From positions 1 to 32,557 of the forward strand of contig JADGPT010000009.1 in NCBI GenBank assembly GCA_017882345.1: a stretch of 32,557 nt of DNA, written 5' to 3'. Below the pieces are notes generated by a model. The model was not told the origin of the DNA. It saw only the letters and a list, made by a program, of their open reading frames with translations, and made no database searches. A program made the position numbers and the translations under genes. Origin of the DNA: Bacteroidales bacterium (GTDB lineage Bacteria; Bacteroidota; Bacteroidia; Bacteroidales; VadinHA17). Positions within the stretch are counted from its first letter, which is position 1. Each line of letters starts with the position of its first letter. Positions 5,180-32,557 of this stretch are shown here, piece by piece.

Positions 5180-5185
5180 AATGTG

Positions 5186-5193
5186 CAAAGATA
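5186..5193 (-). promoter_or_regulatory. Bacteroidota -7 element (TATCTTTG) for the M23 paralogue 1 operon
   Basis: The minus strand reads TATCTTTG, a perfect TAnnTTTG, ending 6 nt before the ATG at 5179. A T-rich TTTC lies 18 bp upstream as a poor -33 element. The usual start of transcription, a few bases after the motif, falls on or next to the ATG, which implies a leaderless or nearly leaderless mRNA. Confidence 0.7.
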
Positions 5194-5269
5194 ATCAATT
5201 CTGAAAAAAAAGAAACTCGCTATCCAATTTGGATATTAAGATGAATGGAATTGAAGCGTACAGGAGAGA

Positions 5270-14349: not shown

Positions 14350-17202
14350 ATGATGAAACGTTTAGTTCTCTTAACGTGGCTGTTGGCTACATTTATTAAT
14401 TCTGATTTAATTTCTCAGACAAAAGAAAATATGAGAAATAATTTTTACGATGCAGAAAGCTGGATCTTATTTGAAGCCTACAAGGATGCTCTGCCTCTTT
14501 ACCAGCAGTTACTAAAAAATTACCCTGATAATTCAAATTTTAAATACAGGATCGGCCAATGCTATATGAATATCCCCGGGGAGAAAATCAGGGCTGTCAG
14601 CTACCTTGAGGATGCTGTTAAAAACATTGATCCAAAGTACAAAGAGGGGAAATTCAAGGAGACCGGAGCGCCTTATGATGCTATCTATTACCTCGCCAAT
14701 GCTTACCGGATCAATAACCAGATTGATAAAGCTCTTAAAACTTATGAACAATTCAGGAAGAACCTTAATTCTGATGTATATGATACTACAGTAGTAAATC
14801 TACAGATACAATCATGTCGTAATGCTTTGGAACTGATGAGGATGCCATTATATGTAAAATTCAATAACCTTGGGAAGATGATAAATGGAGTAAACAATGA
14901 CTTTAACCCTGTTGTATCTGACAAAGAAGACCTTCTTGTATTTTCGAGAAGCCAGGCATTTTATGATGCGCTTCTTTACTCCCGTAAAGTTAATGGAGTA
15001 TGGTCTGAACCACTGAATATGAATGAGTTGTTGAAAGTTGACAAAGATCTTTTTCCAACTTCCATTTCAAAAGACGATAAAGATTTATACCTCTACAGTT
15101 CTGCAGATTATGATGGAATTATTTATACATCCAGATTTGAAAATGGCACTTGGTCTCCAATTGTAAAGCTCAATGATAACATCAATACCAAATATTGGGA
15201 ATCGCATGCAACTATCTCCCACGACAATAAAAAACTATACTTCACGAGTAATAGAAAAGGGACGTACGGGGGTCTTGATATCTATGTTTCGAATCGTGAC
15301 AGTACAGGCGACTGGGGACCGGCAAAAAATCTTGGACCTGTAATAAATACACCTTATAATGAAGAATCCCCTTTTTTGAGTGATGATGATAAAACACTTT
15401 TTTTTAGCTCAAGGGGCCATTTTAATATGGGCGGTTATGATATTTTCTATTCAACACTTCTTGATAATGGTGAGTGGTCAGTTCCACTGAATGTTGGTTA
15501 TCCATTTAATACAACCGACGATGATGTGTTTTTTAAGCCTCTGAATCAAGGTTATGAAGGATACATCGCCAAAGAACTTCCCGGAGGTTATGGGAAACAG
15601 GATATTTACCGGGTCGAGATTTTTTCTAACAATCATCCCAGAAAATTCTTTGTAAGAGGAATGGTAAAAGTAGCTGACCTGATAAGTAGTATGAATGATA
15701 GTGTGAAGATAAGCGCTATGAATATCAAAAACTCAAACCAGACTATGATTGTCTATTCGAATCCTATAACAGGTGAATATGAGTTCCAGCTTCCCCAGGG
15801 GGACTATAAAATCACCTATGAAGGAGACGGAGGCGAAAAAGTCGTCAGAAATCTGGATTTGCCTCTTTTAAACCCTTCCGACAGTTTTGTACTTCCTGGA
15901 ACAGTACTGCCAAAAACTGATTTTGTTGCAGATTTAAAGGTTGAGACTAATAAAACAATCTCAGTTACAAAAGGTGACTCAATACTGTTTCCTATAAAAG
16001 TGGAGCCAAACTCTTTCCTTATAGTTGAACATTGGGTTGGAAACTCATTGATATCAGTCCAACATTTCACAATCCGCGATTCAACTTTCAACTATAAGAT
16101 GGCACCTGATAGTGGAAACAACAGAGTTGTCTTTAAATTGACGGACAAATTTAATAACAAAACTGAAACTGAAGTTTTAATTACCAGGCAGAATAACCTT
16201 ATAGGACAACCAATAACCCGACCTGAATACAGCCGGGTTATCTCTGAGAAACAGATAGCCTCACTTTCTACAATGATGAAGAACAGGGCTAAAGATGATC
16301 TGTTAAAGGCCATTACAGAGGCAAATATTGAAAAACGGCAGTTCGGGAAAATCGATGAATATATATCATTTCTTAAAGAAGAAGTCAGTAAAAAAGGTAT
16401 AAGATCTGAAGAAATTGATAAACTGGCTTTAAAAGTTGCCGTTATGGATAATATTCTTACACAGGCAGCAGTTGATTATTTGGCAAATCATACAGATGGT
16501 GACTTGAATAAAATTCTCAGAGATCTTGATATTTATGAATCCAATCTCAAGAACTGGACTGATTTACAGGAATATGTAAATGTTAAGACGGGCGGTAAAA
16601 TAGGCCCCGGGGATCTGAACAGGATTGCTGCAGCAGTCTTAGCTGAAACAGATCCATCCATTGAATCAATGAAAAAGAAAATATTGGCATTTAGTGAAAA
16701 CTCAGCTGCCGGAGAGATTATTCGTCAATCTGTGACTACTATAGACCAGAGCAACTTAAAATCAAGAGAGCAATGGTTACAGGCATTTTATACCGAATCT
16801 CTCAAACGTGGACTTACCCCGAGCCAGATATCAGAAATGTTGGTATTGATAAGTTCATTGCCTGGTACTAAGGTTGAACAGTATCTAAAGGATTTGATTG
16901 AACAATCTGATGAACCTTTAGCAACAGCGCTAAAATCAATTGACCTGAAAAAAGAAAGAATCAATACACCGGAGGATCTGCTCTCATATCTCTTCAACAA
17001 TAAGGAAAAGTTTCCTGAAAAAGCTGTCCTTAAGAGTTTAGCGAACCTGATATCTGCAAAAGATATCTCAGTTGATAATATTAAAGCTCATTTTACAACT
17101 TCCGGGAAAGCCTATCTATGGATCCTATGGGTTCTAATCGGTGCCGGGCTTTTTAGCTTGTTCCTGATAATGTGGAAAAGAAAAAGGAACAATAAGAGAT
17201 AG
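14350..17202 (+). CDS. TPR/PD40 beta-propeller envelope protein with C-terminal membrane helix (paralogue 1)
   Basis: A 950-residue exported protein. A signal peptide (about 1-23) is followed by TPR-like helices (about 28-165; ESWILFEAYKDALPLYQQLL, IGQCYMNIPGEK). Next come WD40-like PD40 repeats (about 183-430) with blades at 183, 234, 284, 339 and 391, such as ISHDNKKLYFTSN and GGLDIYVS. Then a carboxypeptidase-regulatory-like domain (about 433-520, NPITGEYEFQLPQGDYKITY), a long helical region (about 640-915), one transmembrane helix (about 921-942) and a basic tail WKRKRNNKR. TPR+PD40 recalls PorE-type proteins of the type IX secretion system, but there is no OmpA domain. The basic tail suggests inner-membrane anchoring with the propeller in the periplasm. 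First of three tandem paralogues. Function unknown. Confidence 0.85.
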   Translation: MMKRLVLLTWLLATFINSDLISQTKENMRNNFYDAESWILFEAYKDALPLYQQLLKNYPDNSNFKYRIGQCYMNIPGEKIRAVSYLEDAVKNIDPKYKEGKFKETGAPYDAIYYLANAYRINNQIDKALKTYEQFRKNLNSDVYDTTVVNLQIQSCRNALELMRMPLYVKFNNLGKMINGVNNDFNPVVSDKEDLLVFSRSQAFYDALLYSRKVNGVWSEPLNMNELLKVDKDLFPTSISKDDKDLYLYSSADYDGIIYTSRFENGTWSPIVKLNDNINTKYWESHATISHDNKKLYFTSNRKGTYGGLDIYVSNRDSTGDWGPAKNLGPVINTPYNEESPFLSDDDKTLFFSSRGHFNMGGYDIFYSTLLDNGEWSVPLNVGYPFNTTDDDVFFKPLNQGYEGYIAKELPGGYGKQDIYRVEIFSNNHPRKFFVRGMVKVADLISSMNDSVKISAMNIKNSNQTMIVYSNPITGEYEFQLPQGDYKITYEGDGGEKVVRNLDLPLLNPSDSFVLPGTVLPKTDFVADLKVETNKTISVTKGDSILFPIKVEPNSFLIVEHWVGNSLISVQHFTIRDSTFNYKMAPDSGNNRVVFKLTDKFNNKTETEVLITRQNNLIGQPITRPEYSRVISEKQIASLSTMMKNRAKDDLLKAITEANIEKRQFGKIDEYISFLKEEVSKKGIRSEEIDKLALKVAVMDNILTQAAVDYLANHTDGDLNKILRDLDIYESNLKNWTDLQEYVNVKTGGKIGPGDLNRIAAAVLAETDPSIESMKKKILAFSENSAAGEIIRQSVTTIDQSNLKSREQWLQAFYTESLKRGLTPSQISEMLVLISSLPGTKVEQYLKDLIEQSDEPLATALKSIDLKKERINTPEDLLSYLFNNKEKFPEKAVLKSLANLISAKDISVDNIKAHFTTSGKAYLWILWVLIGAGLFSLFLIMWKRKRNNKR

Positions 17203-17283
17203 AAATACAGTACTATGAGCGGCTTTTGCCGGTAATATTTATAAAAAAATATATGATTAACAATTCTTTCAACTTTTTTTTAA

Positions 17284-17291
17284 TAAATTTG
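17284..17291 (+). promoter_or_regulatory. -7 element for TPR/PD40 paralogue 2
   Basis: TAAATTTG fits TAnnTTTG and ends 18 bp before the ATG at 17310, the same distance as other promoters in this window. It lies downstream of the TTG (17226) and ATG (17253) that could extend the frame, so it decides in favour of the start at 17310. No clear TTG at -33. Confidence 0.5.
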
Positions 17292-17309
17292 TTTTCCAAA
17301 AATCTGTTT

Positions 17310-18584
17310 ATGAGCAAAAGAGCAGTGTGTCTGTTTTTTACATTAGTATTAATCATTCCGACATACGGTCAGGATAATAAAGAGCTTCAGGAATCATTTC
17401 TTGAGGCTGAGTATTTTCTGATGAATGAAGATTACACCGATGCGCTAACCTACTATTTGCAATTGTATGAAAAGCTGCCTGATAATGCAAACCTGGCTTA
17501 TTGTATAGGTGTATGTTACCTGCATATTCCTTCTAAAAAGAATCTCTCAGTTGATTTTCTTGAAAATGCAATAAAAAACATGTCGGCGAAGCACAAAGAG
17601 GGTTCAATTAACCAGATAGCTGCTCCATACGATGCATTATTCGAACTGGGAAAAGCATACCGTGTTAATTTCAGGTTCGATAAAGCAAAAGAAACCTTCA
17701 CGAAATACCTGGCAACACTACTTCCTGACGATCATGAGAACATCGATTTCGTTAAACATGAAATAGAGGTATGTGATACGGCGAAAGATCTGATATCAAA
17801 GCCAGTATCATATTCAGAAGAAAATATGGGAGAACTCTTCAATGATGAAAAAGATAATTTCAATCCCTTGATTTCAGCTGATGGAAAATCTTTTGCCTAT
17901 ATGGTGTCTCTCAAATTCTATGACGCTGTAATGTTTTCGAAGCTCGTTAATGGAAAATGGACTGCTCCCATTAATATTACTCCTGAACTCAAATCTGATG
18001 GAGATTTCTATATTTCCTGCCTTTCCGCCGATGGTAAATTATTATTCCTATCTAAAGATGATAATATTAATAGCGATATATATGTGAGTTCATTTGACGG
18101 AGGCAGCTGGAGCAAGACTGTTAAACTAAACAAAAATATCAATACAAAATATTGGGAATCACATGGCTTTATTTCTGAAGACGGCAATCAACTCGTTTTC
18201 GCTTCAGACAGACCAGGCGGTTTTGGTGGACTGGATCTCTATATCTCGCATAAAACAAATGGGGACTGGGGTCCTGCTATAAACATTGGTCCGGAAATTA
18301 ACACTCAATTCAATGAGGACAGACCATTTCTTATTAATAATGGGAAGACTCTCTTCTTCGCTTCCCAGGGGCATGAAAATATCGGAGGTTATGATCTGTT
18401 CAGATCCGATCTTCAATCAAATGGTCTATGGAGTAAACCTAAAAACCTTGGATATCCGATTAATACACCCGATGATGATATTTTCTTTATGCCGGTTGGT
18501 GATGGTAAATCTGGTTATTATTCCAGGTTTAATGAGACGGGAGGTTCTGGAAAAGTAGATATCTATAAGATAACATTTAAATAA
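17310..18584 (+). CDS. TPR/PD40 beta-propeller exported protein (paralogue 2, short form)
   Basis: 424 residues from the ATG at 17310, which begins a good signal peptide (MSKRAVCLFFTLVLIIPTYG). Frames upstream are open to 17226 but would put 28 extra residues in front of it. It contains the same TPR-like region (about 22-150; CIGVCYLHIPSKK) and PD40 propeller (about 182-420; ISEDGNQLVFASDRPGGFGG, GGYDLFRSD). It then stops directly after the last blade (GSGKVDIYKITFK), lacking the regulatory-like, helical and membrane parts of paralogue 1. It is thus a free periplasmic or surface version of the shared core. Second of the tandem array, 107 bp after paralogue 1. Function unknown; PD40/TPR proteins often serve in protein-protein assembly. 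Confidence 0.85.
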   Translation: MSKRAVCLFFTLVLIIPTYGQDNKELQESFLEAEYFLMNEDYTDALTYYLQLYEKLPDNANLAYCIGVCYLHIPSKKNLSVDFLENAIKNMSAKHKEGSINQIAAPYDALFELGKAYRVNFRFDKAKETFTKYLATLLPDDHENIDFVKHEIEVCDTAKDLISKPVSYSEENMGELFNDEKDNFNPLISADGKSFAYMVSLKFYDAVMFSKLVNGKWTAPINITPELKSDGDFYISCLSADGKLLFLSKDDNINSDIYVSSFDGGSWSKTVKLNKNINTKYWESHGFISEDGNQLVFASDRPGGFGGLDLYISHKTNGDWGPAINIGPEINTQFNEDRPFLINNGKTLFFASQGHENIGGYDLFRSDLQSNGLWSKPKNLGYPINTPDDDIFFMPVGDGKSGYYSRFNETGGSGKVDIYKITFK

Positions 18585-18624
18585 AAAATGACCATTTTAT
18601 ATTTTATTCCTTTAGAATAATTGC

Positions 18625-18632
18625 TATATTTG
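18625..18632 (+). promoter_or_regulatory. -7 element abutting TPR/PD40 paralogue 3
   Basis: TATATTTG, a perfect TAnnTTTG, ends 5 nt before the ATG at 18638. Transcription would start at or immediately before the start codon, implying a leaderless mRNA. A T-rich stretch near 18602-18606 is the only possible -33 element. Confidence 0.55.
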
Positions 18633-18637
18633 TTTTG

Positions 18638-20590
18638 ATGGTAAAATTCAGAGTAAAGATCCTAAGTTTCATACTGCAGCTATTAACTCTGGCAGTTCTT
18701 CCAGTTGCTGTTTCCGCTCAATCCGTTAGCGAGATGAAACAAATATTTGCAAAGGCGGAGTCTTACTATCTCTATGAAGAATATGAACTTGCAAATCCGT
18801 TATACCTTCTTCTTGATTCTGCAGGAAATCTGAATATTAAATATAAAATAGGGAACTGCTATCTGAATATTCCAGGTGAAAAAGAGAAATCAATTCCTTT
18901 CCTCGAGGATGCTATTAAAACTGCCAGTTATGATTCAAAAACAGAGTCTTTTAAAGAGAAGAAAGCTCCTCTTGATGCCTATTTTTCCCTTGCTAAAGCC
19001 TATTTGATTACTAATCAGTTGGAGAAAGCTCTCAATACACTTCAAACATTTAATAAGCTCGCCAGGGAAACAACCCGCAAAGGAGGAATGAAGAACCTCG
19101 AATACATCGAACAGCAGATTCAAGCCTGTAAAAATGCTATTCAGTTTAAGGAGAATCCAGCCGTTTTTAGTAAAAAAAGTATGGGAAGTGATTTCAGTCA
19201 GGGCTCCATTAACGATAACCCTGCTGTAAGCTTTGATGGGAATACAATAGTTTATACCGAACACAGAGGTATAGTCAACGCTATCTTCTATTCGAAAAAG
19301 GAAAGAGGAAAATGGCAGACACCTATTGAAATTACAGCTGCACTCAACGCCGGAGAAGATTGTTCATCATCTTCTCTTAACAGTGACGGTACAGAACTGT
19401 TTCTCTATAAAACAGATAATTATGACGGAGCTATTTATTCATCAAATTTTGTAGATGGCGCCTGGACTCCAATAAAAAAATTAAATAAGAATATAAATAC
19501 TAAGTTTTATGAATCCCATGCTTCTATTTCATCTGATGGGAAAAAATTATATTTTACCAGTAACAGAGATGGCGGCCAGGGGAACCTCGATATTTATGTT
19601 TCCGAAAAAGATGCTACAGGTGACTGGGGTCTGGCAGTTAACCTGGGAGCAGCAATCAATACACCATTTAATGAGGATACTCCTTTTATAACCGCGAATG
19701 ATTCTCTACTCTACTTTAGTTCCGAAGGACATAGTTCGATGGGTGGATTTGATAATTTCAAAAGTCGGAAAACAGGAACAGCCTGGAATACACCTGTCAA
19801 TATCGGATTCCCGCTTAATACTACTGACGATGATAAGTTTTTCCAACCCATAAATAACGGGCAAAATGCTTATTATTCAATGACAACGGATTACAAAAAG
19901 AAAGAAATTTTTTACCTGGGAATGGGGAATACAAATGTTAATGAGCTATTTGAAATTAAAGGTAAATTCAGCCTCCAGGATACTATTGTAACCTTTAATG
20001 AAAATTATTCAATACATCTTATTAACAAAACATCAGGAGATACTGTAGATGTTGGATTCCCAAATAAATATTCTGGTCTTTACAGTTTTACTGTTGCCCC
20101 CGGAGAATTCAGATTGTTTTATAAAGGTCTTGGATATATAACACACACAATTGATACTGCAATTTTACATAACGACCCGAACCTGATATTAAATATAGAT
20201 GTATCACTTGAGAGAGATACTACTATAGAAAGAATAAAAATGCCAACAATAGTGTACGAAAAAATCAATCTTGCTCTGATACCTACTATTACTTCAATTG
20301 ATACAAGCATGCTCATAAGAAACTTGAATGTGAGTGATGTGGGGGATTTAAATATTAAGGATTCAGATGTGCTCTATTATACAGTTCAGGTTATGGCACT
20401 TCATAATCCAGTCGATGTGACCTATTTTAAGTACATAGCTGACATGAAAGTTATGTATAATGACATCGATAAATTTTACATATACACAACAGGCAGATTT
20501 CCAACAAGAGCAGATGCTTATTCATTAAGACTTGAATTGATAAGAAAAGGATATCCGGAAGAAATCTTTATCAAGAAAGTTTCCAAATAA
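18638..20590 (+). CDS. TPR/PD40 beta-propeller protein with C-terminal SPOR-like domain (paralogue 3)
   Basis: 650 residues. Signal peptide about 1-27 (ending VAVSAQ), TPR-like helices (about 30-165; IGNCYLNIPGEKEKS), PD40 propeller (about 190-430; SSDGKKLYFTSNRDGGQGN, SSMGGFDNF), a beta-sandwich-like segment (about 440-540), and a C-terminal SPOR-like module (about 578-648). That module has YYTVQVMAL at its start and RFPTRADAYSLRLELIRKGY near its end. SPOR domains bind peptidoglycan with denuded glycan strands, so this paralogue may hold the propeller to the cell wall. A TTG at 18635 is also in frame, but ATG 18638 is preferred. Its stop overlaps the start of the collapsed fourth copy (TAATG). 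Confidence 0.85.
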   Translation: MVKFRVKILSFILQLLTLAVLPVAVSAQSVSEMKQIFAKAESYYLYEEYELANPLYLLLDSAGNLNIKYKIGNCYLNIPGEKEKSIPFLEDAIKTASYDSKTESFKEKKAPLDAYFSLAKAYLITNQLEKALNTLQTFNKLARETTRKGGMKNLEYIEQQIQACKNAIQFKENPAVFSKKSMGSDFSQGSINDNPAVSFDGNTIVYTEHRGIVNAIFYSKKERGKWQTPIEITAALNAGEDCSSSSLNSDGTELFLYKTDNYDGAIYSSNFVDGAWTPIKKLNKNINTKFYESHASISSDGKKLYFTSNRDGGQGNLDIYVSEKDATGDWGLAVNLGAAINTPFNEDTPFITANDSLLYFSSEGHSSMGGFDNFKSRKTGTAWNTPVNIGFPLNTTDDDKFFQPINNGQNAYYSMTTDYKKKEIFYLGMGNTNVNELFEIKGKFSLQDTIVTFNENYSIHLINKTSGDTVDVGFPNKYSGLYSFTVAPGEFRLFYKGLGYITHTIDTAILHNDPNLILNIDVSLERDTTIERIKMPTIVYEKINLALIPTITSIDTSMLIRNLNVSDVGDLNIKDSDVLYYTVQVMALHNPVDVTYFKYIADMKVMYNDIDKFYIYTTGRFPTRADAYSLRLELIRKGYPEEIFIKKVSK

Positions 20591-24742: not shown

Positions 24743-24750
24743 TATTTTTG
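24743..24750 (+). promoter_or_regulatory. -7 element for tRNA-Ser
   Basis: TATTTTTG (TAnnTTTG) ends 19 bp before the first base of the tRNA, as expected for a stable RNA with a short 5' leader. A clear -33 TTG is absent. Confidence 0.5.
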
Positions 24751-24769
24751 TCAGCCTCTATTAAGAAAA

Positions 24770-24858
24770 GGAGAGATGGCAGAGTGGTCGAATGCGGCGG
24801 TCTCGAAAACCGTTGTTCGCCTTCCGGTGAACCGGGGGTTCGAATCCCCCTCTCTCCG
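24770..24858 (+). tRNA. tRNA-Ser (anticodon CGA)
   Basis: An 89-nt class II tRNA. The acceptor stem GGAGAGA pairs with TCTCTCC (24851-24857), discriminator G at 24858. The D arm is GCA...TGC, the anticodon stem GCGGT/ACCGT (24797-24801 / 24809-24813) with loop CTCGAAA, anticodon CGA at 24804-24806, reading UCG codons. A long variable arm (GTTC...GAAC) identifies serine. The T arm is GGGGG-TTCGAAT-CCCCC. CCA is not encoded (the sequence continues CAAAG). Its last 16 bases plus three more recur at 25026-25044. Confidence 0.95.
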
Positions 24859-24861
24859 CAA
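24843..24861 (+). repeat. Copy 1 of 19-bp direct repeat (tRNA-Ser 3' end)
   Basis: The 19 bases AATCCCCCTCTCTCCGCAA cover the 3' half of the T arm, the 3' acceptor strand, the discriminator and three flanking bases. The identical sequence recurs 183 bp downstream (25026-25044). A tRNA 3' end repeated directly downstream is the usual footprint of site-specific integration at a tRNA gene. Confidence 0.85.
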
Positions 24862-24982
24862 AGCTTAAATGAACCCCGCGTCAGCGGGGCTTATTTATTT
24901 TACCGAAGATCCGAAGGAAATTTGCTTTCTGAAGGAACTGAGGGAAAATAAATAGGACCTGAAGGGATCATTTAAGCTTTGC
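24858..24982. repeat. 125-bp nested palindromic element behind tRNA-Ser
   Basis: The outer arms are a perfect 15-bp inverted repeat: 24858-24872 (GCAAAGCTTAAATGA) and 24968-24982. Inside are a second perfect 10-bp inverted repeat, TATTTATTTT (24892-24901) with AAAATAAATA (24945-24954), and a GC-rich hairpin (24874-24889). The interior repeats the motif C(C/T)GAAGG several times. There is no convincing coding content. It could form one long branched hairpin in RNA or a cruciform in DNA. It may be a small non-autonomous mobile element or a structured tRNA trailer. Confidence 0.7.
24873..24901 (+). terminator. Hairpin terminator of tRNA-Ser
   Basis: CCCCGC (24874-24879), loop GTCA, GCGGGG (24884-24889), then a T-rich run CTTATTTATTTT. 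It starts 15 bp after the tRNA and is the likely end of its transcript, although the T tract is interrupted by A residues. Confidence 0.6.
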
Positions 24983-25062: not shown

Positions 25063-26340
25063 TTATAGTAGGATTCCGGCAAGAGATGCCGAAACATAAG
25101 AAGCCATTGTACCGCAGAGCATTGCCTTAAATCCCAGTTTAGCAAGGTCGGCTTTACGATTTGGTACGAGTACTCCTATTCCTCCGAGCTGAATAGCGAT
25201 TGAGCTGAAATTTGCAAATCCGCAAAGAGCGAAACTTGCAATTACAACTGATTTTGCGCTTAGTAAACCCTGTTGAATCATTGGTGTAAGGTCGGAATAT
25301 GCAACAAATTCGTTTATTACCATTTTTGTTCCCATCAATGAACCAACATGAAGTGACTCAGCAGGCGGAACTCCCATAACTATAGCAAAGAGGCTGAAGA
25401 ATGCTCCAACAACATCCTTCAGACGAAGATTATCCACATTCAGGCCCAAGGCATTAAGAGATAAACCTATCCATGAAAGAAGATGTCCGAAATATCCAAG
25501 GAGAGCATCCAGAAGAGCTATCAGTGCTATAACTCCGATGAGCATGGCGATAACATTAATTGAAATCTTCATCCCGTCGCTGGCGCCATGTGATATAGCA
25601 TCCATAATATTAGAATGTTCTTTTTTTACTTCAAGTTTTACAGTTCCCTGGGTTTCTGACTCTTCAGTTTCAGGATAGACTATTTTTGCAATGACCAATG
25701 CGCCGGGTGCTGCCATCAGGCTGGCTGCGAGAAGGTATGAGGCAGGCACACCCATTGAGATATAAACTGCCATTACACCACCTGCAATACAAGCCATACT
25801 TCCTGTCATAGATGCAAGCAGTTCCGACATTGTCATTCCTGAAAGATAAGGTCTTATCATTATTTGTGCTTCAACCTGACCTACAAAAGCGCTGGCAACA
25901 TTCGATAAAGCTTCGCTCCCGCTGACTCTCATTGCCCAATGAACAAAACGTGCAATTACTGCTATAACTCTTTGCATCAGACCAATATGATACGCAATTG
26001 CAACAAGAACGCAGACGAATATAATTGTCGGTAACAATATGAAGAGAAAAATACCGCTTTTTACAATTCCTTCCGGAAGAATCTGAGTTACTTTTGTAAG
26101 ATCACCAAAAACGAAAAGACCTCCTGCTTTAGAGAAATCAAGTAGCTTATTTATTGCTTTTCCGAGCCAGAAGAAAATGTCCTGGCCGATTGGAACTTTC
26201 AGAATAAAGATTGCCAGGACAACTTGCAAAAGGAGTCCGGTAACAACCAGGCGGTAATTAATTTTCTTTCGGTTATTAGACCATAAAAATGCAAGTCCGA
26301 GAATAATAATGATCCCGATAACGCCAGTAAATCTTCCCAT
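25063..26340 (-). CDS. Concentrative nucleoside transporter (NupC/CNT family)
   Basis: A 425-residue inner-membrane protein that imports nucleosides with a cation. The N-terminus has three helices, followed by the CNT core: GKAINKLLDFSKAGGLFVFG, LFILLPTIIFVCVLVAIAYH, VSGSEALSNVASAFVGQVEA, MTMSELLASMTGSMACIAGG and, near the end, YSDLTPMIQQGLLSAKSVV and ALCGFANFSSIAIQLGG. These are the Gly/Ser/Asn-rich nucleoside-binding segments of the family. Full length. An SD-like AAGAGG lies 3 nt before the ATG, unusual in this window. A -7 element at 26372-26379 gives a leader of about 25 nt. Confidence 0.93.
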   Translation of the reverse strand: MGRFTGVIGIIIILGLAFLWSNNRKKINYRLVVTGLLLQVVLAIFILKVPIGQDIFFWLGKAINKLLDFSKAGGLFVFGDLTKVTQILPEGIVKSGIFLFILLPTIIFVCVLVAIAYHIGLMQRVIAVIARFVHWAMRVSGSEALSNVASAFVGQVEAQIMIRPYLSGMTMSELLASMTGSMACIAGGVMAVYISMGVPASYLLAASLMAAPGALVIAKIVYPETEESETQGTVKLEVKKEHSNIMDAISHGASDGMKISINVIAMLIGVIALIALLDALLGYFGHLLSWIGLSLNALGLNVDNLRLKDVVGAFFSLFAIVMGVPPAESLHVGSLMGTKMVINEFVAYSDLTPMIQQGLLSAKSVVIASFALCGFANFSSIAIQLGGIGVLVPNRKADLAKLGFKAMLCGTMASYVSASLAGILL

Positions 26341-26371
26341 ATCCTCTTAAATTAAATAATTGAGCCTTCTT

Positions 26372-26379
26372 CAAACCTA
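26372..26379 (-). promoter_or_regulatory. -7 element for the nucleoside transporter
   Basis: The minus strand reads TAGGTTTG (TAnnTTTG), 31 bp before the ATG. A T-rich TTTTAG lies about 20 bp upstream instead of TTG, overlapping the end of the upstream gene. This makes the transporter a separate transcription unit from the L,D-transpeptidase cluster. Confidence 0.5.
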
Positions 26380-26395
26380 CATTTTTTTTGATATA

Positions 26396-27193
26396 TTAGC
26401 TAAAAACCGCTATCTGTCCATTCTTTGGAAGAGCTCTGAATATGATTTTGGCATCGGTACGTGGAAGTCTGATTTTTATAAACGGATGATATTCAGGAAC
26501 TTTTAATACAGCAACTCTCTTTAATGCACTCCAGGTATCGCTAATCCGATCATTTATATCGAAACGGAATCGACTTATCTTGTCATTGATTTGTGCATTT
26601 TCCTCCTGATATACATAGATTCTGATTCCCGAGCTCGTTTCAAGAATATAATTAACAGGTTCAGTAATTGATGTATCCGGCATAATATCAGGTTTATACT
26701 CCGAAGTATCTTTAGGTGCCATCTTGATCATTAGAGGTTCCTTCTTTATTGTAGCAAAGGCATGAGATATAGTAAACGGAGTTGCAAGTATTGATAATAT
26801 TGTATTATCATCTCCTCCCAAAAGAATCTTGCTGGTTTGCACTTTGCTCATCTTTGCTTTATGAACAACTACCCCGCTTATTTCAAGATTAGCAGAATTG
26901 TCCGCCATATTAATAGTGAGGTAAATTGAATCTGTTTCTGCCATCACAATTTTTGACTGAAGAATAGCCTTATCTTTCAATAACTTAAGGTAGGCTGTAT
27001 CCATCAATATCCGTTGGTCAACATCACTTTTCTTAGAGGTTTTAGCTCTATATTCATTTTTTATCTCTTCCAGTTTCCGAATAGGGCTAATCATACACAT
27101 TACGGAATAATAAATGATGAATACCGATATTAGACTGATTAGTATTACGAAAGTTATTTTTCGGTGAGGTTTTTTCTTGATTTCGGTTTTCAT
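26396..27193 (-). CDS. Membrane-anchored protein of unknown function in the L,D-transpeptidase cluster
   Basis: 265 residues. A basic cytoplasmic N-terminus (KTEIKKKPHRK) precedes one transmembrane helix (about 13-35, ITFVILISLISVFIIYYSVM). A short coiled stretch follows, then a periplasmic part of about 200 residues with beta-rich segments (SIYLTINMADNSANLEISGV, GIRIYVYQEE) ending in RLPRTDAKIIFRALPKNGQI. I recognise no catalytic motif or known family. It starts 18 bp after the YkuD gene at 27212 and shares its orientation, so it is probably co-expressed. A supporting or scaffold role for the L,D-transpeptidases is a guess from context only. Confidence 0.75.
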   Translation of the reverse strand: MKTEIKKKPHRKITFVILISLISVFIIYYSVMCMISPIRKLEEIKNEYRAKTSKKSDVDQRILMDTAYLKLLKDKAILQSKIVMAETDSIYLTINMADNSANLEISGVVVHKAKMSKVQTSKILLGGDDNTILSILATPFTISHAFATIKKEPLMIKMAPKDTSEYKPDIMPDTSITEPVNYILETSSGIRIYVYQEENAQINDKISRFRFDINDRISDTWSALKRVAVLKVPEYHPFIKIRLPRTDAKIIFRALPKNGQIAVFS

Positions 27194-27211
27194 ATTACTT
27201 TTTCGATCAGA

Positions 27212-27979
27212 TCAGAAAATATAAACTTTAGAACCAATATTCAGTGTATTGAAGATCACTTTCAGATCTTCATCATTCAACCTGACACAGCCATGTGTGA
27301 CAGGCATACCAAGAAAGCGCTTGTAAATAGTGCCATGTATCAGGTATCCATCTCCTATTGCAAGTGCGTAATCGCCTAATACGCCATACTCATATCTTGA
27401 AAAGTCATCTTTAGGAGGAATTGGGGAACCCTCTTCAACGAATGACCAGTCTGGTCTTTTCCAGACCGGATTTGTTGTTTTGCCGCGAATCCAGTATTTA
27501 CCTTTGGGTGTTTTAAAAACCCATTTTTTATTGCCTGATGTCTGAAGCATTGTATAGCTTCCTGAACTGCAAAATCCTTCTCTTACAAGCTTTTTATTTG
27601 TGTAAAGGTAGAACCTGTTTTCAGTTGTATTGACTACAATATATGATTGGCCTGAGGTATAAGCGTTAACTTTCAGAGATAGGCGCTGAATATCTTTCGT
27701 TAGCAGACCTATTTGCTTTTTGTAGTTCTGATCTTTCTTTAAATCCTTAATATTTGCAATTTCGGTTTTTTGCAGGGGTGCAAACTCCTTCAGAACCGGA
27801 ACAACCAAAAGGATAAAAAGAATCAAGGATAGAGGAACCAGAATTGAACAAATGATTATAAATAAAATCCTGACAACCTTAAGAAATGGTTTCCTCTCAT
27901 TATTAATGCGATTAGCTTCGCCTGTAGGTTGTTCAATCGCAGGCTGTGCCCCATCATGTATTATCTTCTTGTTTTTCAT
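27212..27979 (-). CDS. L,D-transpeptidase (YkuD domain, canonical HGC motif)
   Basis: 255 residues from the ATG at 27979; an ATG at 28006 would add 9 residues and overlap the upstream gene by 17 bp. A cytoplasmic stretch is followed by a transmembrane helix (ILFIIICSILVPLSLILFIL), a coiled linker (about 70-105), and a C-terminal YkuD domain. The active site is complete: YLIHGTIYKRF, then MPVTHGCVRLNDEDL with the catalytic Cys (231 here). Such enzymes make 3-3 crosslinks or attach proteins to meso-diaminopimelate of peptidoglycan. The substrate type cannot be decided from sequence. The gene follows a second YkuD gene by 10 bp. Confidence 0.88.
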   Translation of the reverse strand: MKNKKIIHDGAQPAIEQPTGEANRINNERKPFLKVVRILFIIICSILVPLSLILFILLVVPVLKEFAPLQKTEIANIKDLKKDQNYKKQIGLLTKDIQRLSLKVNAYTSGQSYIVVNTTENRFYLYTNKKLVREGFCSSGSYTMLQTSGNKKWVFKTPKGKYWIRGKTTNPVWKRPDWSFVEEGSPIPPKDDFSRYEYGVLGDYALAIGDGYLIHGTIYKRFLGMPVTHGCVRLNDEDLKVIFNTLNIGSKVYIF

Positions 27980-27989
27980 ATCAGATAAT

Positions 27990-29102
27990 TTACTTGTCCA
28001 CAACATCTTTCAGATCGACCATTGATCCGATAATAGTAACTGGAGTACCTACCCTCACAATCTTGAATACAACATCCATCTCGCTATCAGTAAGAGCAAT
28101 ACACCCTTCTGTCCAGTCTATTCCTTTTCCGCCGTTACCATGGATTTCGATTAACCCTCCAATTTTCGCGGATGCCGGAAGAGAACCGTGTTCTATCTCA
28201 GATCTGAATTTTGCTTTATCTTCATCATTCGGATAGTCGAGTAAAAGAGCTTTGTAGTACTTAGTTTTACCTCCGTCGAACTTTTTCGTAATCTTATACA
28301 TGCCTTCCGGAGTAGCCATGTCACCTTTCACTCTTTTGTCTCCGACCCAGTTTTTCCCCAGTTCGGCTTCAAATTCATATTTTCTGGTCCCATTAAGATA
28401 AATAAAACATTTTCTTGAAAATTTATCAATAATTATTGAATAATCAAGACTTTTTTTCGAATTATTTAAAGTTATGTCAACCCATTTCTTCCATACTGAA
28501 AATGATTTGAAATAGTTTTTAAGGTTGGCAGATGCATTTTCGTATGATCCTGTTAGCAGATACTCGGAATCAGTAATTTTTCTGTTAGCCTGGAGATACT
28601 GACCCTTATTATAGATTATCTCAGCCTCTATTAACAAAATCTTTCCTTTCGATATGCGGTTACGTACTTCTGAAGTTAAAGGATAAGTAGTGAAAAGTTT
28701 ATCAATCTGCGTTATCAGATCGTTAAGGGACTCAATTTTTTGCAGGAGTTTAATTTTAAGGTTCGATGAACTGCTGACTGAGTTATCATCAGCCAGGTTT
28801 GCTTTTTTCACAGAGAGATTTGCAAACATGACAACCCTGTCATAATGTCTGAAATAAAGAAACCTATAATTTTCTTTCTCCCAGTTTACCATAGCAGAAT
28901 CATAGAAGATCTTTGCTTCAGTAAAGAGCTTTTTAGAATATGTATCGGCTTTATTTTTTCCTGCCTTAGAAAGAGTTTCCCTGGCATGTTCCATTTCACC
29001 AGTAGGTGGTTGAGGTGTAAAACGGATTAATAATAAGATAACTAATGGAATAGAAACTGCAATTGCAGAAAAAATCAGCACATCTCTCCAAACCTTTCTC
29101 AT
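27990..29102 (-). CDS. L,D-transpeptidase family protein (YkuD/YafK-like, TEGC variant)
   Basis: 370 residues. An N-terminal transmembrane helix (about 8-28, VLIFSAIAVSIPLVILLLI) is followed by a periplasmic helical region (about 35-205, rich in A, K, Y) and a YkuD-type domain (about 225-360). The active site reads IEIHGNGGKGIDWTEGCIAL: His321 and Cys334, with Glu replacing the usual His of HGC. That WTxGCIA form is, as I recall, typical of the YafK-like branch; the E. coli member DpaA (YafK) releases Braun lipoprotein from peptidoglycan. The helical N-terminal region has an A-x-x-x-Y/F periodicity like the lipoprotein encoded upstream. No own promoter is evident between it and the terminator at 29122-29153. 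Confidence 0.85.
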   Translation of the reverse strand: MRKVWRDVLIFSAIAVSIPLVILLLIRFTPQPPTGEMEHARETLSKAGKNKADTYSKKLFTEAKIFYDSAMVNWEKENYRFLYFRHYDRVVMFANLSVKKANLADDNSVSSSSNLKIKLLQKIESLNDLITQIDKLFTTYPLTSEVRNRISKGKILLIEAEIIYNKGQYLQANRKITDSEYLLTGSYENASANLKNYFKSFSVWKKWVDITLNNSKKSLDYSIIIDKFSRKCFIYLNGTRKYEFEAELGKNWVGDKRVKGDMATPEGMYKITKKFDGGKTKYYKALLLDYPNDEDKAKFRSEIEHGSLPASAKIGGLIEIHGNGGKGIDWTEGCIALTDSEMDVVFKIVRVGTPVTIIGSMVDLKDVVDK

Positions 29103-29121
29103 GTAAACCTGTGACGACTTT

Positions 29122-29153
29122 AAAAAAAACCCCGGGAAATTCCCGGGGGTTTT
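29122..29153 (-). terminator. Strong terminator after the Ala/Lys-rich lipoprotein gene
   Basis: On the minus strand a GC-rich stem (pairing around CCCCGGGA / TCCCGGGG, flanked by A/T pairs and one bulged G, loop of 3-4 nt) is followed by T8 (29129-29122). It lies about 30 bp after the lipoprotein stop and 20 bp before the YkuD gene at 29102. Readthrough would supply that gene. Confidence 0.85.
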
Positions 29154-29178
29154 ATATAAATAAGCTAATACTTATTAA

Positions 29179-29799
29179 TTATTTTTTCTTAGGAGCTACT
29201 GCTTTGCCTTTTCCTTTTACTTTAGCAATAGCATCTTTAAGTTCGGTATTGATACCGGTTGCACTTGCATTTGCAGCTTTAACTTTATTAAGAGCATCCA
29301 TGAATGAACCTTTATCATACAGACCCTGTGCTTCAGCAACAGAAGTTTCACTCGTGGCCATTTCAGTTTTAATCTGCTCAAGAACAGCTGCTCCTTCTTT
29401 TCCTCTTGGAGCTTTTGTTATAAGAGTTTTGTTTTCTTCAATAACTGCTTTAACAGCTGCTATTGTAGTTTCAAACTCTTTTTTAACTTCTTCTTTCTTA
29501 GCAGTAGCATCACTAGCTACCTTGTTTGCAAGAGTTAAGGTAGTAGCAAGTTTAGCTTTTGCAGGGCCAAATTTCTTAAATAATTTTGAATCCTGAGTCG
29601 TAACGTCAGCCATAATAGCTTTCATTGAATCCTGTACAGCTGCAAATTCAGCGGGTACATAGACAGCTGCTTCAGCAGTCTGGGCAGCTGCGATAGCTGC
29701 ATTTGTTGCATCAATTTCAACCTGTGGTTTTTTACCACAACTAGAAAGGACGGCAACCATTGCTATAGCTGCTAATCCCATTAAAACTTTGTTCTTCAT
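29179..29799 (-). CDS. Small Ala/Lys-rich helical lipoprotein, candidate wall-linked
   Basis: 206 residues from the ATG at 29799; the frame is open further upstream, but this ATG begins a proper lipoprotein signal peptide (MKNKVLMGLAAIAMVAVLSSC, Cys21). The mature 186 residues are almost entirely alpha-helical, rich in Ala, Lys, Glu and Thr, and end in GKGKAVAPKKK. The first helix (AAIAAAQTAEAAVYVPAEFA) resembles DUF4398-type coiled helices, and GLYDKGSFMDALNKVKAA a TPR-like turn. No enzymatic motif. A well-formed promoter, a leader of about 75 nt and a strong terminator suggest an abundant protein. The next genes downstream encode two L,D-transpeptidases. The lysine C-terminus next to such genes recalls Braun lipoprotein (Lpp), although length and sequence differ. 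Function is inferred, not known. Confidence 0.8.
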   Translation of the reverse strand: MKNKVLMGLAAIAMVAVLSSCGKKPQVEIDATNAAIAAAQTAEAAVYVPAEFAAVQDSMKAIMADVTTQDSKLFKKFGPAKAKLATTLTLANKVASDATAKKEEVKKEFETTIAAVKAVIEENKTLITKAPRGKEGAAVLEQIKTEMATSETSVAEAQGLYDKGSFMDALNKVKAANASATGINTELKDAIAKVKGKGKAVAPKKK

Positions 29800-29866
29800 T
29801 TTTCTAACCTTTTTAATACTTTGTTTAATTAACAATTTCGATCTATTTAGTTTAATCGTTTCAACT

Positions 29867-29900
29867 TTAAAATTACGGTGCGAATATATTAAAATTACGG
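29867..29900 (-). repeat. Two 12-bp direct repeats 22 bp apart over the lipoprotein promoter
   Basis: On the minus strand CCGTAATTTTAA occurs at 29900-29889 and again at 29878-29867, with start-to-start spacing of 22 bp, about two helical turns. The first copy lies in the promoter spacer directly before the -7 element; the second covers the expected transcription start. This is an operator-like arrangement; alternatively it is a duplicated promoter fragment. Confidence 0.55.
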
Positions 29901-29910
29901 AACATAACAA
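29881..29910 (-). promoter_or_regulatory. Promoter of the Ala/Lys-rich lipoprotein gene
   Basis: On the minus strand TTG (29910-29908), a 19-bp spacer and TATATTCG (29888-29881), one mismatch from TAnnTTTG. Transcription would start near 29875, leaving a leader of about 75 nt, the longest in this window, containing AATTGTTAATT and an A/G-rich stretch before the ATG. Confidence 0.55.
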
Positions 29911-30004
29911 TATAAAAATCAAATAATCTTATTGTCTGTTAAAAAATATGTTGAAAAACACATGATTACTGACCCGACCGGGTATTTCAAATTGTATATT
30001 TTTT

Positions 30005-31378
30005 TCAATCGGCTATAAAACCAAGAAGGTTCAATCCATTTTGAATATCCTCAGAGGACATGAACAGATTCCAGAGTAATCCGGTTCTGTAATTTTCTAT
30101 CATAATAACAACCGGACCCTGATCAATAGCCAGATATCTCTGTGGATACCAATTATTCTGATCACTGAAAGCATCATAGAATCCATATTCGCCCCATATT
30201 TTGTTTCCAAGATTATAATAAAAATGTTTCATGGCATTCATTGATTGCTCCGGGGTATACGGGAAGGACGAGAGAGCAGCTGACGGAGTGATAACTCCCA
30301 GGTCGTTGGTTTCACCGGGAGCATGAGCTGCATAACCTTTCATTGAATAGCTTGCAGAAAGTCCCCAGCAATCCTCACTGTAACCAGCAAATTTCTTAGG
30401 ATTCTGCATACACCATTTCCAGTTAATGAGAGTCTGATTTTTATTCTCCTGCCAATAGTCTGCATATTTGTCCTTCAGGAAACGGGGATCTAATCCAAGA
30501 TATGAATAATGTGCCCAGAATAGTGGTCCGCCATAATCCTCCGCATCATTATGTTTGAGAACCAGGCTATACCCATATTTACTGCTGTGAGTATTTATTG
30601 CACCCGATCTTGCCCACCCCTCATGATAAACCTCTGGCCGGATAGGATAGGTTGGTGAAGATGCAGCTAATATATATAGTATAAGGCATTCGTTATAACC
30701 TTTGACTGCAAAATTCATTTCCCATCTATAATTGGGCGACCAGTGCCAGTACAATACATTCTCTCCGCCTTTTGTAAACCAGGTCCATTCAACTTCTTTC
30801 CATAATTTTTCTATTTCTGACGCGAGTAACTTTTCCCGTTCAGATCCATTTATAAAATACTGTCTGACAGCAAGTAACCCCTGCATCAGGTAGGCTGTCT
30901 CAACAATATCTGCACCATTATCTTTTGGACTAAAGGGTTTTACTTTCCCGGTTTCACCATAAATCCAATGCGGCCAGGCGCCATGAAACCTGTCGGCATG
31001 TTTAAGGAATTCTATAATTCTTGAAAAACGAGTAACTGCTTCGTCCCTCGTAATAAAATCTCTTTCAATACCTACAAGAATTGCCATCAGGCCAAAACCG
31101 CTGCCTCCCGATGTAACAACGTTCATGTCATTTTCAGTATATATTCCATCAACATGAAATCGTTCACGAGCCATCCCTGAATTAGGTTCAGCTCCATCCC
31201 AGAAGTACTGGAATGTTCTGTACTGAACCAACGTGAGAAGCGAATCATCTGATATCTTTTTAAACTCTGATAAACTATTTTTACCTGTTGTTTTGTCCTT
31301 GTTACCGACACAACAGTTAACACTAAATACAATCAGAGCGAACAGAGTATATAACCTGAGGTTTTTCATTGTTTTCAT
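30005..31378 (-). CDS. GH144-type (glucoamylase-like domain) lipoprotein, probable endo-beta-1,2-glucanase
   Basis: 457 residues. Signal peptide (about 1-21) with cysteines in SVNCCVGN, so probably a lipoprotein although the lipobox is poor. The rest is one (alpha/alpha)6-type domain: LVQYRTFQYFWDGAEPNSGM, GGSGFGLMAILVGIERDFIT, HADRFHGAWPHWIYGETGK, KDNGADIVETAYLMQGLLAV, NFAVKGYNECLILYILAASS, YGFYDAFSDQNNWYPQRYLA and DQGPVVIMIENYRTGLLWNL. This pattern (PF10091-like) is that of GH144, whose characterised member from Chitinophaga cleaves beta-1,2-glucan. Bacteroidota use such enzymes on cyclic or linear beta-1,2-glucans. Its ATG overlaps the stop of the upstream paralogue by 4 bp (ATGA). No clear terminator downstream; the 29923-30004 gap is AT-rich with a small ACCCG/CGGGT palindrome. 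Confidence 0.85.
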   Translation of the reverse strand: MKTMKNLRLYTLFALIVFSVNCCVGNKDKTTGKNSLSEFKKISDDSLLTLVQYRTFQYFWDGAEPNSGMARERFHVDGIYTENDMNVVTSGGSGFGLMAILVGIERDFITRDEAVTRFSRIIEFLKHADRFHGAWPHWIYGETGKVKPFSPKDNGADIVETAYLMQGLLAVRQYFINGSEREKLLASEIEKLWKEVEWTWFTKGGENVLYWHWSPNYRWEMNFAVKGYNECLILYILAASSPTYPIRPEVYHEGWARSGAINTHSSKYGYSLVLKHNDAEDYGGPLFWAHYSYLGLDPRFLKDKYADYWQENKNQTLINWKWCMQNPKKFAGYSEDCWGLSASYSMKGYAAHAPGETNDLGVITPSAALSSFPYTPEQSMNAMKHFYYNLGNKIWGEYGFYDAFSDQNNWYPQRYLAIDQGPVVIMIENYRTGLLWNLFMSSEDIQNGLNLLGFIAD

Positions 31379-32557
31379 AAGGTGAAGCCAAGTTTTGTTA
31401 AGCCGCTACGTATTTCAGGAGCTGACATAAATAAATTCCATAGCAGACCTGTTCTGTAGTTTTCAATCATGCAAATAATTGGCCCCTGGTCGATGGCCAG
31501 GGTAGAGTTTGCCCACCAGCCTGCTGTTACATCAAAAGCATCGTAAAAGCCATAATCTCCCCAGAGACGGTCCCCAAGAAAATAGTAATCCGTTTTCAAT
31601 GCGTTCAACGATTGTGTGGGTGTATAGGCAATAGAAGAAATGGCAGCTGTAGGTGTGATTACTCCAAGGTCATTGGTTGGAGATTGTGCATTATATCCCC
31701 ATGGATTGTCGGAAGCAGTCAACCCCCAGACCGCGGAACTATAACCCGGATATTTTTTGGGATTTGCAAGACAATAGTTCCAATTTATCAGAGATTGATT
31801 CACATTTTGTTCCCAATAATCAGCATATTGGTCTTTGAGGTGCCGGGGATCAAGTCCCATAAATGAATATTGGGTAAAAAACAAAGGTCCTCCATAGTCT
31901 GCTCCCAAAGGTAAAAGATATCCATAATAGCTTCTTCCGTTTCTTATTCCTCCGTTATTTGCATATCCGTTCGTATAGACATCCGCTGTAATGGAATATG
32001 TCGGAGAAGAAGCGGCTATGAGATATGTTATAAGGGTCTCATTGTAGCCCTGGATTTTAAGGTTGTACCCATAATCAGGTGACCATTCCCAATAGAGTGT
32101 TTTTTCACCATTTGTAAACCAATCAAATTCGATAGAATTATATAATTTATTGATTCGATCGATTTCTGTTTTCTCTATTGGTACGGTGGGATCAAGATAT
32201 TGTCTCATGCAAAGCAGGCCCTGTATCATAAAGGAGGTTTCCACGATATCTCCTCCGTTGTCCTTAGCACTAAAAGGCTGCGTTTTTCCCGTTACGCCGT
32301 TTATCCAGTGTGGCCAAACACCATGAAAACGATCACAAGTTTCTAAAAAACCAAGGATTTTATCTAATCGGGTGATGCCATCCGCCCTGGGAATGAATCC
32401 TCTTTCTATTGCCACAATCATGGCCATAATGCCAAATCCTGAGCCTCCCGTGGTAACGATATCGCCCGAAGAATTCCGTTCACGCGCCATACCGCATGAA
32501 GGATGGCCAAAATCCCAGAAATATTTAAAGGTTTGTCGTTGTATCAGTGTTAAAAGA
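31375..32557 (-). CDS. GH144-type glucanase paralogue (5' end outside window)
   Basis: Open to the window edge; at least 393 residues are visible. An internal ATG at 32490 should not be taken as the start: upstream codons continue the conserved LLTLIQRQTFKYFWDFG stretch that matches the N-terminal domain of the next gene. Shared landmarks: GGSGFGIMAMIVAIERGFIP, CDRFHGVWPHWINGVTGK, KDNGGDIVETSFMIQGLLCM, YGFYDAF, LAIDQGPIICMIENYRTGLL. It is clearly homologous to its neighbour yet well diverged, so the duplication is old or the substrates differ. Stop and start of the pair overlap as ATGA, meaning translational coupling. SusCD or regulator genes may lie just outside the window. Confidence 0.85.
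   Translation of the reverse strand, partial: LLTLIQRQTFKYFWDFGHPSCGMARERNSSGDIVTTGGSGFGIMAMIVAIERGFIPRADGITRLDKILGFLETCDRFHGVWPHWINGVTGKTQPFSAKDNGGDIVETSFMIQGLLCMRQYLDPTVPIEKTEIDRINKLYNSIEFDWFTNGEKTLYWEWSPDYGYNLKIQGYNETLITYLIAASSPTYSITADVYTNGYANNGGIRNGRSYYGYLLPLGADYGGPLFFTQYSFMGLDPRHLKDQYADYWEQNVNQSLINWNYCLANPKKYPGYSSAVWGLTASDNPWGYNAQSPTNDLGVITPTAAISSIAYTPTQSLNALKTDYYFLGDRLWGDYGFYDAFDVTAGWWANSTLAIDQGPIICMIENYRTGLLWNLFMSAPEIRSGLTKLGFTL

Follow-up and report, generated by a model that had tools for sequence, protein, structure and literature searches.

A conserved lipoprotein–YkuD gene cassette in Bacteroidota, a candidate module for attaching a lipoprotein to peptidoglycan and detaching it again

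Contig JADGPT010000009.1 of the Bacteroidales assembly GCA_017882345.1 (VadinHA17) carries on its minus strand a cassette of four genes, encoding a lipoprotein, two YkuD-domain proteins and a further membrane-anchored protein. The window analysed here is the stretch of 32,557 nucleotides beginning at position 1 of that contig; the source assembly comprises 3.08 Mb in 301 contigs and is 87% complete. The cassette reads lipoprotein P0001, terminator, YkuD#1 (P0002), YkuD#2 (P0003) and anchored protein P0004. An initial annotation of the window had described a 206-residue lipoprotein with Cys21 and an APKKK end, its own terminator, and then a pair of YkuD proteins with one further, anchored protein behind them; all of this was confirmed. 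The gap between the lipoprotein and YkuD#1 genes, given there as 77 bp, is short as stated and measures 76 nt. The features of the locus are as follows.

29881..29910, minus strand: promoter-like element (TTG, 19 nt, TATATTCG), read from the sequence against the promoter consensus
29179..29799, minus strand: helical lipoprotein P0001, 206 aa, with Cys21 lipobox (open reading frame and AlphaFold2 model)
29398..29409, minus strand: invariant loop P-[RK]-G-K of the lipoprotein (P131, G133, K134; 100 non-redundant orthologues)
29182..29196, minus strand: C-terminal APKKK of the lipoprotein, variable among relatives (orthologue C-termini)
29130..29148, minus strand: intrinsic terminator in the lipoprotein/enzyme gap (hairpin scan and conservation)
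27990..29102, minus strand: YkuD#1 (P0002), 370 aa, detaching-type (Pfam YkuD; Cys334, Ala at +2)
Parts of YkuD#1, minus strand: N-terminal transmembrane segment (by eye); lipoprotein-like helical domain, about 29027-28515; YkuD domain, 28442-28032
27212..27979, minus strand: YkuD#2 (P0003), 255 aa, attaching-type L,D-transpeptidase (Pfam YkuD; Cys231, Arg at +2)
Parts of YkuD#2, minus strand: N-terminal transmembrane segment (by eye); YkuD domain, 27646-27218
26396..27193, minus strand: P0004, 265 aa, anchored, with a probable catalytically dead YkuD-like domain (AlphaFold2, Foldseek, no conserved Cys)

Because it is conserved in relatives, this arrangement is more than chance. Of 98 genomes sampled from the family, 57 have YkuD#1 and 57 have the lipoprotein, and these are the same 57, belonging to 2 of 15 genera. 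Across the order the two again occurred in an identical set, of 37 genomes out of 295 (24 of 177 genera), and across the phylum in an identical 9 of 345, seven of which lie outside the class of the window. YkuD#1 was called in the phylum sample from matches to most of the protein with E below 1e-50; 27 further genomes there match the YkuD domain alone. Gene order was read from 122 loci, made up of the 80 best of at least 504 confirmed relatives in named contigs together with 42 loci from the order and phylum samples. Some enzymes recur: eight of the 42 loci share an identical one with the set of 80, and 44 of the 80 share one with the family sample, so that counts are also given for distinct proteins. 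The full order of lipoprotein, YkuD#1, YkuD#2 and P0004 is present in 115 of the 122 loci, or for 108 of the 114 distinct YkuD#1 proteins, and all seven remaining loci reach a contig end where the missing gene would be. The linkage of lipoprotein and YkuD genes that the initial annotation had expected is thus conserved, with no exception other than contig ends.

The nearest named relatives, among the best 80, are Bacteroidales metagenome-assembled genomes with isolate names that refer to fens and lakes, and the source is accordingly taken to be a Bacteroidota genome of this kind. The cassette is also carried by an isolate, Mangrovibacterium lignilyticum (L171). In the same phylum but another class (L194-L200) it is present at a G+C content of 0.56-0.70, with lipoprotein ends such as TRPGQGS. 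Of the eight deepest loci, two (L196 and L200) have a P0004 that is recognised only weakly, at 25 bits. A larger operon was considered and rejected, the commonest flanking family, a nucleoside transporter, occurring in only 29 of 76 loci. The frame of YkuD#1 is interrupted in genomes G057 (L087) and G068 (L086), through assembly error or decay. The cassette is real and apparently not previously described, no account of it having been found in the open-licence literature, judged by titles and abstract openings.

YkuD#2 is a canonical YkuD protein, as had been proposed. It matches PF03734 with 77.1 bits (cut-off 23.4), and the catalytic His, the Cys of the HGC motif and an Arg at +2 are present in 113 of 113 family members. 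The residue at +2 after the catalytic Cys is diagnostic, being Arg in transpeptidases and Ala or Asn in most DpaA-like proteins (PMC8263019). Against the E. coli enzymes the family profile scores 50.5 bits for LdtB, 45.0 for LdtE, 44.2 for LdtA, 38.9 for LdtC and 3.8 for DpaA, scores that do not separate lipoprotein attachment from 3-3 crosslinking.

YkuD#1 also matches the Pfam YkuD family above cut-off, and all 110 aligned sequences keep the catalytic His and Cys (two further rows are gapped). At +2 its family has Ala in 109 of the 110 and Ser in one. On this residue, the earlier suggestion that attaching and releasing enzymes are encoded side by side is supported: Arg in YkuD#2 faces Ala in YkuD#1. 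The description of YkuD#1 as YafK-like stands as a resemblance, since LdtF_DpaA_YafK (NF040599) is its best NCBIfam match, and falls as an assignment to that equivalog, the score of 36.3 bits lying far below the cut-off of 365. Among E. coli proteins the YkuD#1 family profile scores best with DpaA (42.6 bits; LdtA, LdtB, LdtC and LdtE give 12.8-25.9). Lys83 and Tyr109, two residues of the DpaA pocket that are highly conserved in DpaA-like sequences (PMC10653827), correspond to K256 and Y282. To judge from its motifs and profile scores, YkuD#1 is well supported as an enzyme of hydrolase type; that it is a releaser we infer.

An hhalign comparison matches 172 columns of the lipoprotein to the N-terminal half of YkuD#1, with E 2.3e-17 and a score of 123, where 60 column shuffles reach at most 25.5. 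This half of the enzyme is thus homologous to the lipoprotein and appears to be a copy of it that has diverged, so that YkuD#1 seems to combine, behind its transmembrane anchor, a helical domain of lipoprotein type with a YkuD domain. Agreeing with this, DUF4398 (PF14346), a family to which Pfam assigns no function, is matched weakly (E up to 0.1, best 3.5e-6) by 18 of 30 YkuD#1 proteins and 5 of 29 lipoproteins from relatives; P0001, P0002 and P0004 themselves have no match to it at E<=1. It is possible that the helical domain docks on the lipoprotein, and also that it shares the lipoprotein's wall-binding site.

P0004, which the initial annotation had left as an unknown anchored protein, probably carries a YkuD-like domain without catalytic activity. 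Its AlphaFold2 model has a predicted local distance difference test score (pLDDT) of 83.2 and a predicted template modelling score (pTM) of 0.78. Of the 50 Foldseek rows listed for this model, out of 423, 48 bear the name of an L,D-transpeptidase or of YkuD; two others complete the list, 4xxt, to which YkuD#2 is also matched by sequence, and the L,D-transpeptidase 1zat. The root-mean-square deviations are high and the template modelling scores low: the best E is 9.4e-4 (the sole row of the 423 at or below 1e-3; template modelling scores 0.29/0.23), and small YkuD entries reach 0.42 when scored on the target. Comparison with YkuD by hhalign gave weak signals, a probability of 1% with narrow alignments and of 30% with wide ones (E 5.5e-4, score 32.9 against a maximum of 20.0 in 60 shuffles). 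The reading of P0004 as an unrelated protein, to which the narrow profiles had led by giving nothing, gave way to this one with the wide profiles and the predicted fold, which lend it moderate support. The catalytic Cys is absent, no well-filled alignment column exceeding 30% Cys among 105 sequences.

The lipoprotein has the lipobox SSC, ending in Cys21, and the C-terminus VAPKKK. It is predicted by AlphaFold2 to form a helical bundle (pLDDT 89.3, pTM 0.75), with helices in the mature part at residues 26-41, 49-70, 78-129, 136-162 and 166-197. A fold search with this model returned no significant solved match (best E 0.086). A likeness to Borrelia BB0323, with two entries at probability 0.99, was counted as no evidence in view of their E values of 0.13 and 0.19. 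A Pfam match to DUF4245 (E 0.0007, 20 bits against a cut-off of 30) covers the signal peptide together with the first helix and was put down to sequence composition. The initial annotation had cautioned that the protein is not Lpp-sized and had claimed no homology to Lpp, and this caution was borne out: P0001 has 206 residues to the 78 of Lpp and no match to the Lpp family PF04728 at E<=1, and PF04728 is not among the 25 listed of the 69 families matched by 29 lipoprotein orthologues.

It was also proposed at first that the protein is attached, in the manner of Lpp, through its C-terminal lysine. The last residue of 56 complete orthologues in the family sample is K in 15, F in 15, I in 11, R in 10, L in 3 and Y in 2, and the wider samples have a terminal Lys in 34 of 79 and 19 of 42 complete loci. 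In these samples the ends without terminal Lys include KARIRF and KVGGRI. Among 100 non-redundant orthologues, six of them from other classes than that of the window, on which the residue counts below are based, the chain ends in K in 42, R in 23, F in 17, I in 8, S in 7 and other residues in 3. A Lys is present within the last three residues in 73 of the 100 and a Lys or Arg in 98. For background open reading frames of at least 150 residues from the fetched loci, the corresponding figures are 47 of 422 ending in K and 176 of 422 with K or R within the last three. Mapped on a tree of 110 YkuD#1 rows, the state of the terminus (K or other) changes at least 26 times, against a mean of 35.5 and a minimum of 30 with shuffled labels, which implies some inheritance but much turnover. 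The terminal Lys is thus enriched over background and not conserved, while a basic tail is nearly universal. Since most orthologues end otherwise and the state changes so often on the tree, attachment through a terminal Lys in the style of Lpp is not a mechanism that the family conserves, and it was rejected as such.

It is an internal lysine that is invariant. Start methionine aside, the residues without exception wherever present are Cys21, P25, P131, G133 and K134. Position 134 is Lys in 100 sequences and Arg in none, whereas the neighbouring position 132 has Lys in 47 and Arg in 50. In the profile alignment, the stretch of the enzyme domain that matches this P-x-G-K loop is without the G-K. 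A lysine that refuses Arg resembles an amine acceptor, although Lys134 could also be a structural or binding residue. If attachment is covalent, it is more likely to be at an internal lysine than at the terminal one.

The median length of the gaps between the genes is 78 nt between lipoprotein and YkuD#1 and 7 and 14 nt for the two later ones. The strong terminator noted earlier after the lipoprotein gene has an 8-bp stem with 7 G-C pairs and a T tract (29148-29130), and it is conserved among relatives: a terminator-like hairpin lies in this gap at 94 of 120 loci (88 of 112 with distinct enzymes), where a mononucleotide shuffle predicts 0.7. Within 26300-30100 of the window there are 8 terminator-like sites against a shuffle mean of 2.1. 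The same region has 17 sigma-70-type promoter-like sites against 12.7 in shuffles, and the sigma-70-type scan is therefore uninformative. Upstream of the lipoprotein lies a Bacteroidota-type -7 box, TATATTCG, at 29888-29881 with a TTG 19 nt upstream. The pattern TAnnTTYG occurs within 120 nt upstream of the lipoprotein at 65 of 118 loci (10.3 expected by mononucleotide shuffle), and upstream of YkuD#1 at 27 of 122 (11.1), of YkuD#2 at 9 of 121 (8.7) and of P0004 at 5 of 116 (10.2). The separate terminator suggests that there is more lipoprotein than enzyme transcript, and gap, terminator and box together fit a lipoprotein that would be made in excess over the enzymes, like a structural substrate.

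The explanation favoured here, with a probability of roughly 0.5, is a dedicated module that attaches a lipoprotein to peptidoglycan and detaches it again, in which the lipoprotein is not an Lpp homologue and the link is taken to be covalent. YkuD#2 would join the amine of a lipoprotein lysine to meso-diaminopimelate of a stem peptide, and YkuD#1, as an enzyme of DpaA or L,D-carboxypeptidase type, would hydrolyse the bond between lipoprotein and peptidoglycan. The N-terminal lipoprotein copy of YkuD#1 may serve to dock it either onto the helical bundle of the lipoprotein, which would reside in the outer membrane, or at the wall site that the lipoprotein uses. The lysine used would be the conserved internal Lys134 of the P-x-G-K loop and not the terminal one, and P0004 may regulate or scaffold YkuD#1 and YkuD#2. 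A version with every part in place, namely a self-contained outer membrane-wall tether of Bacteroidota whose Lys134 is attached by a dedicated transpeptidase, released by a hydrolase fused to a copy of its substrate and regulated by a dead YkuD protein, is tentative and somewhat doubtful as a whole. The independent outer membrane-peptidoglycan tether of the initial annotation survives in part: conserved linkage and the types of enzyme argue for it, and its terminal-Lys mechanism falls away.

Several points weigh against this explanation. The covalent linkage is itself proposed on indirect evidence. K72 (94 K, 6 R), K102 (98 K, 1 R, 1 I) and K193 (95 of 99) are also nearly invariant, so that Lys134 may be structural. 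The order of helices in the AlphaFold2 model suggests a bundle running up and down, in which the Lys134 loop and the C-terminus would both lie at the lipidated end, and this is awkward for a long tether; a link on that side would bring wall and outer membrane near to each other, as is reported for Coxiella, where the distance between the two is about 35 Å compared with about 85 Å in E. coli (PMC12729407). Only two of the four alignable residues of the DpaA pocket are identical in YkuD#1: of those described as specific to DpaA (PMC10653827), Gln86 and Arg108 are both replaced by Lys, and Lys130 and Tyr131 are unaligned. Among solved structures, the best sequence match of YkuD#1 is to Pgp2, named an L,D-carboxypeptidase (PMC10653827), and L,D-carboxypeptidases are likewise without the transpeptidase Arg (PMC8263019); for these reasons YkuD#1 may be an L,D-carboxypeptidase. 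Finally, the cassette is patchy, occurring in 37 of 295 genomes of the order, and the genome studied has 7 OmpA-domain matches, so that the cassette is unlikely to be the sole anchor.

The most serious rival, though a somewhat unlikely one, is that the lipoprotein is never attached and has a regulatory or scaffolding role, acting as a non-covalent activator of both enzymes that reaches through the wall to gate L,D-transpeptidation. LpoA and LpoB, which activate penicillin-binding proteins, provide an analogy. The occurrence of the lipoprotein and YkuD#1 in identical genomes and the all-helical model without catalytic features would suit such a role, and the homology of lipoprotein and enzyme domain favours homotypic contact. 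On the other hand, the separate terminator suggests an excess of lipoprotein transcript, and a Lys134 that is invariant without Arg as a substitute exceeds what a scaffold obviously needs.

General wall editing is a quite unlikely explanation. YkuD#2 would then make 3-3 crosslinks and YkuD#1 would trim tetrapeptides in the manner of Pgp2 and Csd6, with the lipoprotein as a wall-binding spacer. The kinship with Pgp2 favours this, as does the statement that some DpaA homologues may be carboxypeptidases (PMC8263019). In the genome, moreover, which is 87% complete and in which the gene for ribosomal protein L22 was not found, PF03734 matches no proteins besides YkuD#1 and YkuD#2; any 3-3 crosslinking by this family would therefore need to come from YkuD#2, unless the assembly misses a gene. 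Wall editing leaves unexplained, however, why the lipoprotein and YkuD#1 are never found apart in three samples. As for Lpp-like attachment through the side chain of a C-terminal lysine, the enrichment of Lys and of basic tails, the use of a Lys-Thr end by Legionella Lpg1810 and the tolerance of the Dickeya Lpp box for many changes (PMC12729407, PMC12274547) speak for it, but 58 of 100 orthologues that do not end in Lys, 27 of 100 without Lys in the last three residues and ends such as those quoted above make it very unlikely.

On the favoured reading, that of an attachment and detachment module, the closest known counterpart is the E. coli set of Lpp, the attaching enzymes LdtA, LdtB and LdtC and the detaching enzyme DpaA. 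Both combine a lipoprotein with Arg(+2) and Ala(+2) YkuD enzymes, and in E. coli a YkuD gene, ldtE, also adjoins lpp. Apart from the size, family and terminal Lys of the lipoprotein, the cassette differs in that all its genes lie together, its enzymes have N-terminal membrane anchors, its releaser-type enzyme carries a lipoprotein-like domain and it contains an extra, probably dead, YkuD-like protein. Judged from these proteins' sequences, the cassette would work like the Lpp/Ldt/DpaA set without its lipoprotein being a member of the Lpp family or YkuD#1 a DpaA equivalog. A precedent for an outer-membrane lipoprotein attached through an internal, non-terminal lysine is LimB of Coxiella, whose attaching enzyme is given as unknown (PMC12274547, PMC12729407); the likeness drawn here is to its mode of attachment. 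Pgp2 and Csd6 resemble YkuD#1 in lacking the transpeptidase Arg, whereas YkuD#1 has an N-terminal transmembrane segment, a lipoprotein-like helical domain and a neighbouring gene for a transpeptidase-type YkuD protein.

The cassette suggests a dedicated tie between outer membrane and wall in bacteria that lack the classical, Lpp-based one. The study in which DpaA was discovered also finds DpaA-like proteins in groups that have no Lpp, Bacteroidetes among them, and leaves the substrate of these proteins open (PMC8263019). If the reading is true, the cassette would supply that substrate for the DpaA-like enzymes of Bacteroidota without Lpp, offering a specific candidate encoded next door together with a candidate attaching enzyme, both testable in a cultured isolate. 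Attachment of the outer membrane to the wall would become directly testable in cassette-bearing Bacteroidota.

Elsewhere in the window, a tRNA-Ser (CGA) lies at 24770-24859 (plus strand), and the short open reading frame that overlaps it (24748-24951) is probably a chance translation. Three consecutive proteins encoded at 14350-20590 (plus strand) look paralogous by eye, with similar N-terminal repeats and propeller-like stretches. Upstream of the cassette, at 30005-32556 (minus strand), are two adjacent, similar proteins that look by eye like glycoside hydrolases, the second being cut by the window end. At 4208-6271 (minus strand), tandem membrane-anchored paralogues, M23-type peptidase-like by eye, are possibly a second wall-editing pair in the window.

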